Origin: Blastocatellia bacterium
Lineage (GTDB): Bacteria; Acidobacteriota; Blastocatellia; HR10; J050
Assembly: GCA_025054955.1 (NCBI GenBank)
Contig: JANWZE010000076.1
Location: 1 to 46,854 of the forward strand
DNA: 46,854 nt
Direction: 5' to 3'
Shown here piece after piece: positions 1-5,594 of this stretch; position 1 is the stretch's first letter, and each line of letters starts with the position of its first letter. The notes under the pieces are model-generated. The model did no database searches. It had not been told where the DNA came from and worked only from the letters and a program-made list of their open reading frames with translations. A program made the translations under genes and the position numbers.

Positions 1-1539
1 AAGAGCAAAGAATTCATTTTCTTTTTGCCTGCTGATCATGCGGAAGAAATCTCCGTGCCTGATGAGATGATCGAACGATTCCAGGATGACGACCAAATTA
101 CGCAATGGCAAGAAAGAGCCTTTCCAAAGGATAAGCCTGACCCGAATTGTCGTGACCGCAATGGGATGGTTCGCAAGAACCCACCAGAGCCTGGTGATCC
201 TGTGTTCTTCTTGCGAGAAAACGAGCAACTTACTTTCTTCGGGCGGGCCCAGATGTTCCGCCTGCCCTACACGCAACGCCCCATAGACCTTGTTCCGCCA
301 GAATTGCGCCGACCTGAAGACATTGACTATGCGGAAGCGTTGTTCGGCTTTGTGCGAACCAAGAAAGAGCTGGCAGAGATGAAACAACGCGGTGTCATCC
401 AGGAAATCCCGAAGCAGGGCGATAAGCGTCGGGCTTATGCTGGTCGGGTGTTTGTAACAGACGCCGTGTTAGAAGATGGGCAGAGCGACTACTGGCTATC
501 TCCTGATCCAATCACTCCAAAGATTCTCGCCACGCCGAAACCGACTGCCTTTCAACACTACCTTGTGCAAACCGGGGACAATAAAAGCCAACTAAAGCAC
601 TACGGCAGTCCAACTCCACAGGACACCATCATTCGCGGACACAAACGCTACTGGCACCAGGGTCTGAGCTCAGACGAAGGGTTGACGCTCGATCGAATTC
701 GGGAACTGATCGAGGACGAGAGAGCGCGACTCCACCAGTTAGCAGAAACGAGTACGCAGCACACGCAATTCAAACCGGTAAAACCAGGTGTGAAATTCAC
801 GTTCCGTGTTTACTTCGAGAACCTCTGCGACCGCGAGCTGGGCGCACTGTGCTGGACGCTGCATCCGTTGGGAGATTCGAGCAAAGAATATTGTCACCAT
901 CTCGGCATGGGCAAGCCGCTGGGCATGGGTGCGGTGAAGCTGGAGGCAACCCTGCATCTGACCAATCGGTCCACGCGCTACGGTACACTGTTTGATGGTG
1001 ATAATTGGCAGACAGGAGCAACAGCAAGTAGTGAGTCGTTGTCCGACCGCGGAACGCTGGAAGCACGCGTCAAAGATTTTGAGCAGCATGTCCTCGAAAC
1101 GCTCGGCCACAGCGCAACAGGCCATCATCTCTCTGAAGTGAAGCGCATTGGAATGTTGCTCAAGCTGATGGAATGGCCAGGCTTCCGGGCAGTGCCGCCT
1201 ATTCCCGGTCAGCCTGCGCCCAACAATTGTGTTATTACCGAAAATGGAGTCCAGCGCCCCAATACGCGCTACATGATGATTGAACTGCCGGGTGTTTCAG
1301 GATCAGGGAGAAATGAATACCGTGACCGTCCCGTGTTGCCCGATCCTTGTGCCTTCGATTCCAGTATCTGCACTCTCGCTGAGTCAGCTTCAAACAGCTC
1401 GGATGCACCTGCAAGTGCATCAGCTCAACCCAGTACCTCCAGTGGCTCGACTCCTTCACTGCCATCATCCTTGAAGGTCGTCTCTAATCCATCCGGTCGA
1501 AAAGCGAAAAAACGAAAGCGGAAGAGGCCAAACCGATAA
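1..1539 (+). CDS. RAMP-superfamily CRISPR-associated protein (TIGR03986-like), 5' end cut by window edge
   Basis: The reading frame is open from base 1, so the gene begins outside the window; the TTG at 25 is internal. The protein resembles the TIGR03986 family of type III CRISPR RAMP proteins, which are backbone or crRNA-binding subunits of Csm/Cmr-like effector complexes. Visible RAMP features are a segment with DYAEALFGFV followed by a GRVFVTDA strand, and a glycine-rich loop HHLGMGKPLGMGAVKL about 300 residues in, where RAMPs contact crRNA. The last roughly 55 residues are serine-rich and end in a very basic tail (KAKKRKRKRPNR), probably disordered and possibly RNA-binding. The Csx3 operon starts about 270 bases downstream on the same strand, consistent with one type III locus. 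The family is read by eye; membership in the RAMP superfamily is firmer than the exact subfamily. Confidence 0.8.
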   Translation, partial: KSKEFIFFLPADHAEEISVPDEMIERFQDDDQITQWQERAFPKDKPDPNCRDRNGMVRKNPPEPGDPVFFLRENEQLTFFGRAQMFRLPYTQRPIDLVPPELRRPEDIDYAEALFGFVRTKKELAEMKQRGVIQEIPKQGDKRRAYAGRVFVTDAVLEDGQSDYWLSPDPITPKILATPKPTAFQHYLVQTGDNKSQLKHYGSPTPQDTIIRGHKRYWHQGLSSDEGLTLDRIRELIEDERARLHQLAETSTQHTQFKPVKPGVKFTFRVYFENLCDRELGALCWTLHPLGDSSKEYCHHLGMGKPLGMGAVKLEATLHLTNRSTRYGTLFDGDNWQTGATASSESLSDRGTLEARVKDFEQHVLETLGHSATGHHLSEVKRIGMLLKLMEWPGFRAVPPIPGQPAPNNCVITENGVQRPNTRYMMIELPGVSGSGRNEYRDRPVLPDPCAFDSSICTLAESASNSSDAPASASAQPSTSSGSTPSLPSSLKVVSNPSGRKAKKRKRKRPNR

Positions 1540-1809: not shown

Positions 1810-2745
1810 ATGAACACGCGTGATGTAACCGTAACGCTGATTCCTACCGAAGAGGATTTTCAGATCCTCGACATCTTCATGGAAGCTGGGCGGATTCGAC
1901 CCGATGTCATCCGCTCTCTGAGCCTTCCCTCGAACATCGATCCTGCCAAGGGAGTCGTCATTAGTGGGAGAGCACCAATTTGGTTATATGCCCGTTTAGT
2001 TCACCTATGTTTGAACGCCCCATGGGTCGCCACGTATGACCCAAAGGCTGGAGCTATCATTGTTGTCCGTCGCTCGGTGGATCGGCCACAAGTGGGTGAT
2101 GTCATTCCGAAGGAAAAGGTATTCTGCTATTTGCCCAAGCATTCGGGGCCATCCAACCAAGAGGAGCCAAAGCCTGGAATCGGCTCCAAAGCGATTGCTT
2201 TCCTGGGACCGCCGCACAGTGGAAAGTCGGTGTTGATGAACGCACTTCGAATCAAGATGCAAGAGGTACTCCCTGCTGAGAAATTTCAACGTGATTTCTA
2301 CGTTCTTCGCGCCTGCCCTGACGGCGAGGGGGATTGGTTCAACGAAATTCCCCAAGAGGTCGCAATGACGCTACGCTATAAGAACCGCTTTGACGATGAG
2401 TTTGTGAATCAAATCTGCCAAGCCCTAGAGCAGCTCCGCCAACAAAAGCAACTATTGCTCGTCGACTGCGGTGGCAAGATTGACAGAAAGAACCAGCGCA
2501 TCCTCAACCGGTGCACACACGCCGTCATCGTGTCGCGCCATCCTGAGGAAATCCCCCTCTGGCGAGGAGCGGCGTTCTCCAGTGAGCTGGAAATCCTGGC
2601 GGAAGTAGAATCCCTCACCAATTCCTGCGCTGAAGTGCTTTCTTCTTCGCCTCTTCGCATACGCTTAGGCAAGTTAGAACGAGGAGAACGCTTGGCTGTT
2701 CCCGACGAGCTTTGGGGTTGCTTGAAATCTTTAATTGTTGATTGA
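1810..2745 (+). CDS. csx3: Csx3 (Crn3-type ring nuclease) domain fused to a P-loop NTPase
   Basis: This 311-aa protein joins two domains. Residues about 1-102 match Csx3: the conserved core GVVISGRAPIWLYARLVH, then APWVATYDPKAG and a GDVI ending. Csx3 proteins of type III CRISPR systems bind and cleave cyclic tetra-adenylate, and conserved His and Asp residues matter for this; H65 and D77 are the visible candidates. After a short linker (about 112-124) comes a P-loop NTPase with Walker A GPPHSGKS (133-140) and a Walker-B-like strand LLLVDCGG (216-222). The start is supported by AAAGGAG nine bases upstream. The last codons overlap the region just before the next gene, with which it forms an operon. 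The Csx3 call is firm; the role of the NTPase (fuel for a membrane partner, nucleotide kinase, or regulator of cOA turnover) is unknown. Confidence 0.8.
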   Translation: MNTRDVTVTLIPTEEDFQILDIFMEAGRIRPDVIRSLSLPSNIDPAKGVVISGRAPIWLYARLVHLCLNAPWVATYDPKAGAIIVVRRSVDRPQVGDVIPKEKVFCYLPKHSGPSNQEEPKPGIGSKAIAFLGPPHSGKSVLMNALRIKMQEVLPAEKFQRDFYVLRACPDGEGDWFNEIPQEVAMTLRYKNRFDDEFVNQICQALEQLRQQKQLLLVDCGGKIDRKNQRILNRCTHAVIVSRHPEEIPLWRGAAFSSELEILAEVESLTNSCAEVLSSSPLRIRLGKLERGERLAVPDELWGCLKSLIVD

Positions 2746-2770: not shown

Positions 2771-3850
2771 ATGGCACGCATCACAGAACGCAGCGCACGC
2801 GAGGCAGGGGCAGAGGATGCAAGAAGGAATTATCCTCCAAGCGACTTTGATGGCCAAGACGGTCGCATTTCGGACTTTGAGAAGCAAGTGGCCACTGTCA
2901 CTAAAAAAGAGATAGCGGATGCCGTTGAAAAATGGCGTCAAAGGGAAAACGAGGTGCTGAAGGAGCTCAGGACCATGGTTCCCGAATTACAGGCATCGCT
3001 CCACCGCTTCGAGGATACTCTGGAAACCCACAGGCGCCAATTTAGCCGAGATGTTGCCCCTGAGCCACCCCATCGTTATGGGAAAGTAGCCATTGCTGTC
3101 CTTGTTCTCCTTTTCCTCTTCGAAGGAGGCGTCAATATCTTCACGTTCCGCTTCCTGCGTGAGCCCGGCATCACCACTGTTGTCATTGGCCTGGCATTGG
3201 CAGTTCTCATCCCCTTCTCGGGATTCTATGCGGGTCGAATTCTGAAAGCCAAGGAGAAAGGATTTGTGGAGTGGGTTGTCGCCGTGCTGTTAGTCTTGAG
3301 TGCAGCCGCCCTGATCTTTGTTGTGGCACAAGGACGGCGGATCGGAATCGAGGCGCGTAAACACGATCCCAAAATTGTCGAAGAAGCGTTCTTAATTTTT
3401 CTGCTTCTGAATATCTTGCTCTTCGGGATCGCTTTTGGGGATGGCTATTTTTCAGGATACGTCTATCCCCGCTTGCAGAAAGCGTATGAGGAGCTGAGGC
3501 GTCGGAAGCGCCAATACATGAACAGACGTGCCCGCTTGAATGAGGCGTTCATCGGTGCTCTTAGCCATGTGCGGGAGAAGCTCGCCACGGCGCAACAACT
3601 TGGTGTGGTTTATCGCGAGGCTAACAGAAGAGCGCGAGGCAACGTGCCTCAGGAGGAGATACCAAAGTATTTTGTTGATGCGAGCTTCAAAGTAACCAGT
3701 GAAGTGCCCCAAGAAATAAGGAAATATCTTGATTCAGATGAGCCGGTGCGTGATTATGAGAAGAACCTGACGGATAACGAAGAGGCTATAAAGAATGGGC
3801 AAGAGTTGATCGGGAAAATAGATCGAGCCTTCAAGGAGGCTAAGTCATGA
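2771..3850 (+). CDS. Four-helix membrane protein with coiled-coil flanks, CRISPR-neighbour protein of unknown function
   Basis: I do not recognise a family. The start at 2771 is chosen over the ATG at 2735 because GGAG lies seven bases before it and because the earlier start overlaps the Csx3 gene. The 359-aa product has a charged, probably coiled-coil N-terminal region (about 45-92), four predicted membrane helices (about 105-126, 134-154, 165-187 and 206-227), then a long basic helical region (about 235-285) and an acidic C-terminus. No enzyme motif is visible. It sits between the Csx3-NTPase and the vWA lipoprotein genes and overlaps the latter by ATGA, so the three are probably translated together. 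A membrane-acting effector or scaffold linking a cytosolic cOA-binding ATPase to a surface or periplasmic protein is one reading; that is inference only. Confidence 0.75.
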   Translation: MARITERSAREAGAEDARRNYPPSDFDGQDGRISDFEKQVATVTKKEIADAVEKWRQRENEVLKELRTMVPELQASLHRFEDTLETHRRQFSRDVAPEPPHRYGKVAIAVLVLLFLFEGGVNIFTFRFLREPGITTVVIGLALAVLIPFSGFYAGRILKAKEKGFVEWVVAVLLVLSAAALIFVVAQGRRIGIEARKHDPKIVEEAFLIFLLLNILLFGIAFGDGYFSGYVYPRLQKAYEELRRRKRQYMNRRARLNEAFIGALSHVREKLATAQQLGVVYREANRRARGNVPQEEIPKYFVDASFKVTSEVPQEIRKYLDSDEPVRDYEKNLTDNEEAIKNGQELIGKIDRAFKEAKS

Positions 3851-4548
3851 GATGGCTTCTTTTCCTCTGCGTGACAATCTTGTGCATTGGATGTAACAAG
3901 ACAAAGATTGAGACGCTGGGTGTTCTGGTGATGGTTGATTTTTCAGTGAGCGCGCGTCCAGACCTGCCTGATTATCGGAAATATCTTTCCGTCATCCTGA
4001 ACGAAATGCCCGCAGACAGTCGTCTCGTTGTCGGTAAAATCGGAGAGACCACTGAGGCTACCTTTGATCCCTTCATTAACGAAACGTTCCCTGATGAAGA
4101 TTTTTGGACAACCAACCCTCAGGATGTTGCTGATGAGAAAGAGGCCATCAGAAAAAGATTCGAAACGCGCTGCGAGGAGGCTTTTCAGAACCCGACACTC
4201 AGTCCCTGGACGAACATCGTATCAGCTCTTTCTTTAGTTAAGCAGGTATTTCCAGATTCCAAGCGCCGTGTTCTCGTGCTGCTTTCAGATATGTTACATA
4301 GCTCATCGGACTTTGACCTGGAGAAAGTCAACATCACCGATGAATACATTGAGGCGACAATTGACAGGTTGAAGCGGGAGGATCGCCTACCACGACTTGA
4401 TGGAGTAGAAGTTTATGTTGCGGGCGCTCGCGCGCCGACTGACGAGCGGTATCGGGCTGTCAGGAAATTCTGGGGTCGCGTGTTTGAAGAAACCGGTGTT
4501 CAACTTAAATCGTATGGGCATACCCTTCTCAATTTTGAGCTGCGATAA
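3847..4548 (+). CDS. von Willebrand A domain lipoprotein
   Basis: The 233-aa product starts with a short lipoprotein signal, MRWLLFLCVTILCIGC, with the lipobox cysteine at 16. The mature part is a vWA-like Rossmann fold: a first hydrophobic strand GVLVMVDFSVS carries the metal site DxSxS (D31, S33, S35), T122 in SPWTNIVSAL supplies the threonine, and D148 in VLVLLSDML supplies the last aspartate, so the MIDAS looks complete. vWA domains bind protein partners through the metal. A lipoprotein of this kind would face the periplasm. Its ATG overlaps the stop of the membrane-protein gene (ATGA), which implies translational coupling. The partner is unknown; the neighbouring membrane protein is the obvious candidate. 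Confidence 0.75.
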   Translation: MRWLLFLCVTILCIGCNKTKIETLGVLVMVDFSVSARPDLPDYRKYLSVILNEMPADSRLVVGKIGETTEATFDPFINETFPDEDFWTTNPQDVADEKEAIRKRFETRCEEAFQNPTLSPWTNIVSALSLVKQVFPDSKRRVLVLLSDMLHSSSDFDLEKVNITDEYIEATIDRLKREDRLPRLDGVEVYVAGARAPTDERYRAVRKFWGRVFEETGVQLKSYGHTLLNFELR

Positions 4549-4790
4549 GCGAGTACGGCTTGACAGTAAGCGTTTTGAAAATGGTGACTGAGAGGGCAGA
4601 AGGTACAACCTCCCACGACTCCCCACACCTTTTTGACCTGCTACCCGTAGCGTGTTCACTACAGCCCGCCATGTGCGAGTGAGCCTGATTGAGACGGCAG
4701 CGGACATTGATGAAGATGGTAGCTGTCCCTGTGGGATTACGGTGGCTTATGCTAGAATGCTGATGATCAATAATCACGACGAGGACGATT

Positions 4791-5594
4791 ATGTCTCAAC
4801 CACTGACAGAGTTCATGCCGGATATTCGCCACATCATCACGGAGGACGATACTCCTGTGGACAATTTTGCCTCTGAAAAACAGCAACGGCTGCTGACCGA
4901 ACCGCTCTACAGCTCATGGGCAGGCCCCGGCCAAGGGCGATCATTTCTGGTGGCTGCTAATGTAGGAATTTTCTACACGCCCCGCGCAGCGGCGATTGTG
5001 CCGGACGTGTTCCTCAGTTTGGACGTAGAGGTTGCGCCCGATTGGTGGCAGAAGGAGCACCGGTCATACTTTCTGTGGGAGTTTGGCAAGCCGCCGGAAG
5101 TCGTCATTGAGATTGTCTCGAATCGGGAAGGCGGGGAGGCTGACGAGAAGAAACAGAAGTACGCGCGGATCAAGGTTGGGTATTACGTGATTTACGATCC
5201 GTTGCAGCAGGTCATGCCAGAGCCGTTGACGATTTATCAATTGCGTGGGCATACGTATGTCTTACAGGCGGAGCCGCGCTTTCCTGATCTCAAGCTTGGT
5301 TTAACGCTGTGGGAAGGGGAATACGAAGGTAGGCAGGATGTATGGCTACGATGGACCGACGAGCAGGGACGAATTATCCTGACCGGTAAGGAGCGGGCTG
5401 AGGCGGAGCGGGAGCGGGCTGAGGCGGAGCGGGAGCGGGCTGAGGCGGAGCGGGAGCGGGCCGAGCAGGAGCGGCAACGGGCCGAGCAGGAGCGAGCGGA
5501 GAAGGAAGCATTACGTGAGCAACTTGAGTTGGAACGCCAACGCGTTGCCCAACTGACAGAGCGCCTGCGACAACTAGGCAGGGAGCCAGAGTAA
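4791..5594 (+). CDS. Uma2-family (DUF820) PD-(D/E)XK-type endonuclease with coiled-coil tail
   Basis: Residues about 40-190 match Uma2/DUF820 proteins, a restriction-endonuclease-like fold common in cyanobacteria and Acidobacteriota. Visible signatures are IVPDVFLSLDVEV (D72), PPEVVIEIVSNREGG (E107), the lysine-rich helix EKKQKYARIKVGYYVIYDP and the late LKLGLTLWEG strand. Residues about 196-260 form a highly charged helix built on perfect and near-perfect AEAERER heptads, encoded by a DNA tandem repeat, ending in a leucine-rich stretch. A GAGG seven bases upstream supports the ATG. It follows the vWA gene by about 240 bases and may or may not belong to the CRISPR module; Uma2 genes are common stand-alone genes of uncertain function. 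Confidence 0.85.
   Translation: MSQPLTEFMPDIRHIITEDDTPVDNFASEKQQRLLTEPLYSSWAGPGQGRSFLVAANVGIFYTPRAAAIVPDVFLSLDVEVAPDWWQKEHRSYFLWEFGKPPEVVIEIVSNREGGEADEKKQKYARIKVGYYVIYDPLQQVMPEPLTIYQLRGHTYVLQAEPRFPDLKLGLTLWEGEYEGRQDVWLRWTDEQGRIILTGKERAEAERERAEAERERAEAERERAEQERQRAEQERAEKEALREQLELERQRVAQLTERLRQLGREPE
5391..5495 (+). repeat. 21-bp tandem repeat inside the Uma2 gene
   Basis: Three identical 21-base units (5391-5411, 5412-5432, 5433-5453) are followed by two diverged units (5454-5474, 5475-5495). Each unit encodes seven residues, so copy-number change would lengthen or shorten the coiled coil by heptads without shifting the frame. Confidence 0.9.

Follow-up and report, generated by a model that had tools for sequence, protein, structure and literature searches.

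A candidate cA4 receptor in a type III-D CRISPR locus: a Csx3-NTPase fusion encoded with a four-TM protein and a VWA lipoprotein

The Csx3-NTPase fusion protein encoded near the start of the window (the whole stretch of DNA analysed here, 46,854 nucleotides from a Blastocatellia bacterium) probably reads the CRISPR alarm molecule and hands it to the cell envelope. The preferred reading, with a probability of about 0.55, is that the protein is a receptor for cyclic tetra-adenylate (cA4) and a nucleotide switch that would drive an envelope effector, and not a ring nuclease, as judged from its residues and its predicted fold. It draws on the families to which the genes belong and the order in which they lie, on the residues lost from the Csx3 domain, on the predicted fold, and on the recurrence of the unit and its linkage to CRISPR. 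Confidence is high that the protein works together with the products of the two genes downstream, a four-TM protein (TM) and a VWA lipoprotein (VWA).

Type III systems with cA4-gated membrane effectors are already known, and so are Csx3-NTPase fusions, which have a PADLOC family and occur in the literature as Csx3' or AAA-ATPase fusion (PMC7371418, PMC12409355, PMC9676260); what the fused NTPase does is called unknown in the current literature (PMC12409355). In the open-access literature no description was found of a dead Csx3 as receptor, of a SIMIBI sensor-membrane switch or of the TM-VWA pair, and prior notice is possible.

Results

Identity and domain structure of the fusion protein

The Csx3-NTPase frame (Table 1) is a single complete ORF with a strong ribosome binding site, AAGGAGA, ahead of the ATG. 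Residues 17-100 match the NCBIfam profile TIGR02579 (Crn3/Csx3) with E=1.9e-21 and 76.1 bits, passing the cut-off of 55.4, and the domain also matches Pfam PF09620 (6e-23). The full-length protein matches the PADLOC profile PDLC01045, 'Csx3-AAA', over positions 22-285 of 286 (E=2.4e-61). In an AF2 model built with 76 sequences (mean pLDDT 92.1) the N-terminal half corresponds to the solved Csx3 structure 6yud with a Z of 16.2 and an rmsd of 1.4 A over 99 residues. The profiles, the motifs and the model bear out the view of the earlier note that the N-terminal 100 residues are Csx3 and that they are fused to a P-loop NTPase with a Walker A GPPHSGKS and a Walker B-like LLLVDCGG (here G133-P-P-H-S-G-K139-S and D219-C-G-G). 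The gene that it placed at 1810-2745 is real and lies on the plus strand, but the unit continues past 2745, to 4548.

The closest relative of the protein was found in Myxococcota (L013 / L220), on a contig with Cas10 and a CARF protein; the same contig has a frame resembling reverse transcriptase followed by a primase-like region, as judged by eye. No close relative was found in the viral contigs searched for Csx3-NTPase.

Table 1. Positions of the features described in the text
Feature	Sequence	Position	Strand	Basis or remark
Type III-D Cas7 (TIGR03986), 5' end cut by contig start	window	25..1539	+	profile matches
Csx3-NTPase fusion protein, 311 aa	window	1810..2745	+	ORF, profiles, AF2 model; proposed cA4 receptor and nucleotide switch
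Csx3 domain (about residues 4-100)	window	1819..2109	+	profiles, alignment, structure match
Leu68 codon, at the position of the essential ring-nuclease residue H60	window	2011..2013	+	gapless alignment to 6yud/3wzi
K79 codon, in place of AfCsx3 R71	window	2044-2046	+	alignment
R88 codon, in place of AfCsx3 H80	window	2071-2073	+	alignment
Predicted SIMIBI-class P-loop NTPase domain (residues 124-311)	window	2179..2742	+	motifs, AF2 model, fold comparison
Walker A GPPHSGKS	window	2206-2229	+	sequence
PDGEG motif	window	2317-2331	+	sequence
D-x-GG motif	window	2464-2475	+	sequence
Four-TM protein, long coiled-coil helices both sides, 359 aa from ATG 2771 (frame open from 2735)	window	2771..3850	+	
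VWA-domain lipoprotein, lipobox LCIGC, MIDAS D31-x-S33-x-S35, T122, D148	window	3847..4548	+	sequence, 11-way alignment
TM-VWA pair	L218	5098-7040		
TM-VWA pair	L267	679-2579		
TM-VWA pair	L268	7936-9845		
TM-VWA pair	L269	8935-10726		
TM-VWA pair	L272	83-1972		
TM-VWA pair	L273	908-2776		
Standalone Csx3 with dead-site Csx3-NTPase	L010	9992-11299		
Standalone Csx3 with dead-site Csx3-NTPase	L049, L057, L060, L152, L153, L155-L157, L166, L170, L171, L174-L176, L179			
NTPase-Csx3-Csx3 of Chloroflexota	L065, L067, L069-L074, L076-L078, L080-L082, L084, L086, L088, L090			

Cleavage face and cA4-binding face of the Csx3 domain

AfCsx3 cuts cA4 between two dimers: the D69 face holds the ring, and the H60 face supplies H57, H60, H80 and a metal, while R71 is a contact to cA4. 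The H60A variant has no detectable activity; H60A and D69A are dead singly and active when mixed, and the activity of R71A and H80A is strongly reduced. Crystals of H60A with cA4 were obtained, and the variant appears to form fibres with the ligand (all PMC7371418).

The window protein was aligned without gaps to AfCsx3 (6yud/3wzi; AF_1864) over the active-site stretch. Five of the six residues of the cA4-binding face (S44, G45, R46, I49, D69 and R71) are kept: S52, G53, R54, I57 and D77 are identical to the first five, and R71 is replaced by K79. The metal and catalytic face (H57, H60 and H80) is incomplete, with H57 kept as H65, H60 replaced by L68 and H80 by R88. The cleavage face is thus broken and the binding face largely kept. 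On these residues the protein is very probably not a working ring nuclease on its own; the retained H57 makes residual metal binding possible. The suggestion that the attached NTPase makes the ring nuclease nucleotide-dependent is not supported by the alignment, since H60 is essential, H80 and R71 are important (PMC7371418) and all three are replaced. H65, which the earlier note had named as a residue to mutate, is the counterpart of H57, and the essential H60 corresponds to Leu68.

The C-terminal NTPase domain

The C-terminal half alone gave a match to PADLOC PDLC01515 (1.3e-50); the match to Pfam AAA_22 (0.003) is below its cut-off. G133, G138, K139, D219, G221 and G222 are invariant among 76 relatives of the protein. 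Residues 124-311 of the model matched MinD (1ion) with a Z of 13.9 and an rmsd of 3.5 over 174 residues; ParF, Soj (ParA), FlhG, dethiobiotin synthetase and HypB gave Z values of 12-13, and the matches listed for the domain are SIMIBI proteins. The domain is predicted from its modelled fold to belong to the SIMIBI class (MinD/ParA/dethiobiotin synthetase) and not to AAA+, and the label 'AAA' for the domain fused to Csx3 appears to be a misnomer. It is not a member of MinD/ParA proper, because GPPHSGKS lacks the signature lysine of the deviant Walker A motif (KGGxGK[TS]). Two other assignments were rejected: AAA+, to which there were just weak sub-threshold Pfam matches, and the GTPases (Era/Der), the matches to which were chance matches of the P-loop only. 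Many SIMIBI proteins are nucleotide-dependent dimer switches, several of them at membranes.

The three-gene unit and its relatives

The Csx3-NTPase gene is the first of a unit in which it is followed by the genes of the four-TM coiled-coil protein and the VWA lipoprotein. The ATG of the TM gene, with a GGAG box, lies 25 bases past the Csx3-NTPase stop codon, and the end of this gene overlaps the ATG of the VWA gene by 4 nt. The VWA lipoprotein has both a lipobox and a MIDAS motif (DxSxS...T...D) in sequence and 11-way alignment. It gives a weak match to Pfam VWA_2, and for neither downstream protein did a family in Pfam, NCBIfam or PADLOC reach its cut-off. The model of the four-TM protein is of modest confidence (74.8 pLDDT), and a fold search gave no clear match, the best rows (Z about 8) being unrelated helical proteins. 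No relatives of the TM or VWA proteins were found in the plasmids searched.

The unit recurs in four Bacteroidota genomes (L019, L020, L270 and L271). In L019 and L020, both Bacteroidales, the Csx3-NTPase is followed by homologues of the TM protein (E=2.5e-72 and 4.7e-41) and of the VWA protein (1.3e-63 and 1.1e-47). The units in L270 and L271 were found by profile searches, and the homology of their TM proteins to that of the window rests more on gene order and four-TM layout than on the sequence score. The five units, including that of the window, come from two groups and have overlapping or closely spaced genes. In 5/5 the Csx3 domain has lost H60 and kept D69, and G45 and R46/K46 are kept in 5/5 as well; the position of R71 is Lys in the window and Gly in L020.

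The order of genes in L270 is Csx20, Csx3-NTPase, TM, VWA, Cas10 (III-D), further III-D subunits and a TIGR03986-type Cas7, which makes it a complete III-D locus; the window shows one end of a locus of this type. Since the adjoining Csx20 is a demonstrated cA4 ring nuclease (PMC12409355), the off-switch in L270 is a protein other than the Csx3-NTPase. CRISPR arrays adjoin L020 (5 repeats) and L271 (14 repeats). Cas10 was sought in two Bacteroidales MAGs (G401 and G402) and not found.

Some further features were seen around the units. Three tandem 139-nt repeats lie at the contig edge before the unit of L019 (1-417) and end in the same ACAAGGATTGCGAC as the CRISPR repeat of L020. A gene for a metallo-beta-lactamase/beta-CASP lipoprotein is convergent to the VWA gene in L019 (3401-4933, minus strand) and L020 (3570-5153, minus strand) and is absent from the window. 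After the unit the window has a Uma2-family nuclease-like gene (4791-5594) with a C-terminal repeat of EAERERA units, and another Uma2-like gene adjoins the Csx3-NTPase of L209 (10827-11507; by eye).

The TM-VWA pair was also found in loci where the stretch read has no Csx3-NTPase (L218, L267, L268, L269, L272 and L273). It lies directly after cmr6 in L218, a locus with a DHH-CorA effector, after cmr6 in L267, and in a Csm locus in L268, where it adjoins a CARF protein and the known type III membrane protein Mem_01. That the pair is combined with different sensors in this modular way speaks for it as the output and for the Csx3-NTPase as the input. In other settings the pair adjoins an RtcR-like regulator, or a terminase-like gene, which suggests a prophage; no relatives of the L273 VWA protein were found in the phages searched.

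The CRISPR locus in the source genome

Contig C76 begins with the window, whose first gene is a cut III-D Cas7; this TIGR03986 Cas7, directly upstream of the unit, indicates that the unit is part of a type III locus. Another contig, C39 (4,530-bp), carries on one strand a cut Csx1 (CARF-HEPN) with a C-terminal Csx3-like domain, a Cas10 with the HD and GGDD motifs kept, a Cas7-like RAMP and a second, cut RAMP. We infer that C39 and C76 are one III-D locus broken by assembly, since the cut cas genes run in the same direction and in view of the gene order of L270. The contig ends share no sequence and the two are not joined in the assembly; the TIGR02682 profile gave no match, and none in the controls either. 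A type III locus with Cas10 is clear for the relatives L270 and G396, and for the window the Cas10 would be that of the separate contig C39. A second Cas10-like gene was seen on contig C31 of the source genome (G000; 4153-4632), and signals may thus come from more than one type III system in the cell.

Survey of Csx3 domains and Csx3-NTPase fusions

The survey drew on 80 loci taken from public genomes and on further loci of cyanobacterial and other origin, with every Csx3 domain mapped to AfCsx3 numbering. Outside the NTPase fusions (frames under 250 aa) the H57/H60 pair is kept in 46/46 domains scored, and in most of the N-terminal Csx3-NTPase fusions of cyanobacteria all catalytic residues are kept. 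An intact standalone Csx3 was repeatedly found in cyanobacteria directly adjoining a Csx3-NTPase with a dead H60 site. The H57/H60 site is kept in 0/17 fusions adjoining a standalone Csx3, compared with 62/72 scorable single fusions (Fisher p about 2e-11), and some of the former (L010, L049 and L157) have additionally lost D69 and R71. In the NTPase-domain tree this comparison comes down to four independent contrasts, about two agreeing and none opposed, which puts significance out of reach; the death of the fused site beside a standalone Csx3 was rejected as a proven rule and is reported as a pattern.

The NTPase motifs persist in the fusions regardless of whether the Csx3 site is alive or dead. 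Among N-type fusions with a broken H57/H60 site, DGEG is kept in 21/30 and Walker A and DxGG in all 30, which argues that the NTPase function is the one under selection. The site is broken in 5/5 fusions with the TM-VWA module versus 24/86 (Fisher p 0.003), a figure with the same dependence problem, as the bearers may be one clade. The proteins of Chloroflexota have the reversed order NTPase-Csx3-Csx3, and the catalytic histidines are lost here too: D69 and R71 are mostly kept in the first Csx3 copy and not in the second, and the catalytic histidine set in neither. By these residues they are candidates for a further receptor instead of a ring nuclease.

A different half of the site is seen in CARF-HEPN-Csx3 proteins (PADLOC PDLC01844; L093 1-711, L246, L247, L248, L249, L250 and L251), which keep H57, H60 and H80; D69 is kept in 1/7 and R71 is Pro in 7/7. 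Their C-terminal domain is half an active site, perhaps one that works on the cA4 held by their own CARF domain. The half-site Csx3-like domain is encoded by a small frame of its own in G224 and G344.

Discussion

The default database annotation would make the window protein an active or weakly active Crn3 ring nuclease with a rate set by the NTPase. TIGR02579 names it Crn3, D69 and H57 are kept, and the fusion architecture as such is compatible with ring-nuclease activity, since most single cyanobacterial fusions keep the full catalytic set (the H57/H60 pair is kept in 62/72 scorable singles). This is quite unlikely, however, as H60 is missing from all five TM-VWA units, that of the window included, AfCsx3 H60A is inactive and R71A and H80A are strongly reduced (PMC7371418), and L270 has its own ring nuclease, Csx20, adjoining. 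It is also unlikely that the Csx3 domain no longer binds cA4 and serves dimerisation or docking, with the NTPase answering another cue such as contact with the Cas10 complex. The Lys at R71 in the window and the loss of D69 and R71 in some fusions beside standalone Csx3 would fit such a role, but D69 is present in 5/5 TM-VWA units together with G45 and R46/K46.

A sponge or regulatory protein, with cA4 bound merely as a buffer and the downstream membrane genes as unrelated neighbours, would have a parallel in the sponge role suggested for Csx15 (PMC12409355). It is very unlikely given that the TM-VWA pair follows the Csx3-NTPase in five genomes of two groups, with genes overlapping or closely spaced, and that the NTPase motifs are strictly kept. 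Least probable is a split ring nuclease, in which the window protein would contribute its D69 face and Csx1-Csx3 of C39 its H60 face to one site around cA4, and the two effectors would switch each other off. In the C39 protein H57, H60 and H80 are intact and D69 and R71 are gone, a mirror image of the situation in the window protein, and inactive AfCsx3 H60A and D69A regain activity when mixed (PMC7371418). The same half-site is, however, present in CARF-HEPN-Csx3 proteins of G086, G307 and G323, genomes in which no Csx3-NTPase was found, with the Pro at R71 in 7/7, so it did not arise by pairing, and its target may rather be cA4 in the protein's own CARF domain. A co-evolved pair was rejected after the search for CARF-HEPN-Csx3 in the same phylum had shown the half-site to be a family trait.

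With the Csx3-NTPase as receptor and switch, the Cas10 of the type III-D system would sense phage RNA and make cA4, which the Csx3 domain would bind through its D69 face. Without cleavage the Csx3 dimers would stay stacked on cA4 as tetramers or filaments, like AfCsx3 H60A, and the stacking would bring the SIMIBI (MinD/ParA-like) NTPase domains together and set their nucleotide state, presumably with NTP hydrolysis. The coiled-coil cytoplasmic parts of the four-TM protein would contact the switch, read this state and relay it through the inner membrane, and the VWA lipoprotein would act on the periplasmic side, with envelope damage, depolarisation or growth arrest as the result. Removal of cA4 would fall to a separate enzyme, here perhaps the Csx1-Csx3 protein and elsewhere Csx20, Csx15 or a standalone Csx3. 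That cA4-stacked dead Csx3 drives a SIMIBI switch on a modular four-TM/VWA-lipoprotein envelope unit, shared with CARF or CorA sensors, is proposed tentatively, at slightly less than even odds; the half-sites of Csx3-NTPase and Csx1-Csx3 might in addition meet in the source genome as a shared off-switch. The best support goes to the idea of the earlier note in which cOA binding is coupled by the NTPase to work on a partner, the products of the two downstream genes being the likely partners.

The domain order and the Walker A, PDGEG and DxGG motifs are common to the window protein and the Csx3-AAA / Csx3' proteins (PDLC01045; slr7080 of Synechocystis; Crn3-ATPase fusions). In most of these the ring-nuclease residues are retained, and TM-VWA genes were not seen next to them, whereas the window protein has lost H60 and H80; their C-terminal domain has been called AAA or kinase/transferase and is predicted here to be of SIMIBI class. 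With the Crn3/Csx3 ring nuclease of A. fulgidus (AF_1864, 6yud, 3wzi) the window protein has the fold (Z 16.2) and most of the cA4-binding face in common, and it differs in the replacement of H60, H80 and R71, the attached NTPase and the operon with membrane partners. The cA4-gated membrane effectors Cam1, Csx23 and Cap1 resemble the proposed logic of a cA4 receptor and a membrane component in a type III locus. Each of them is one polypeptide with a CARF-like or other soluble domain that binds cA4, whereas the sensor of the window would be Csx3, with a nucleotide switch interposed and a periplasmic VWA lipoprotein added.

The TM-VWA pair is likewise present in DHH-CorA SAM-AMP effector loci of Bacteroidota (L218), but with CorA and not Csx3-NTPase. 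The vWA-MoxR-VMAP ternary conflict systems also combine an NTPase and VWA proteins in defence, and also near CRISPR loci (PMC10910872, PMC7159879); VWA and transmembrane genes near CRISPR loci were described in general terms in a 2023 survey (PMC10910872). The window differs from these systems in an NTPase of predicted SIMIBI class and a VWA lipoprotein paired with a 4-TM protein, and no VMAP-type domain was seen. MoxR is an AAA+ protein.

From the residues, the fold and the downstream pair it is proposed that the annotation as a Crn3 'off-switch' hides, in some proteins, a cA4 receptor of a membrane effector, and loci scored as ring-nuclease-bearing on a Csx3 match alone may have none. The TM-VWA pair would be an undescribed effector pair that accompanies several type III sensors. 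If the proposal holds, it would mark the first effector built on Csx3 and the first case of a type III output passed on to the cell surface.
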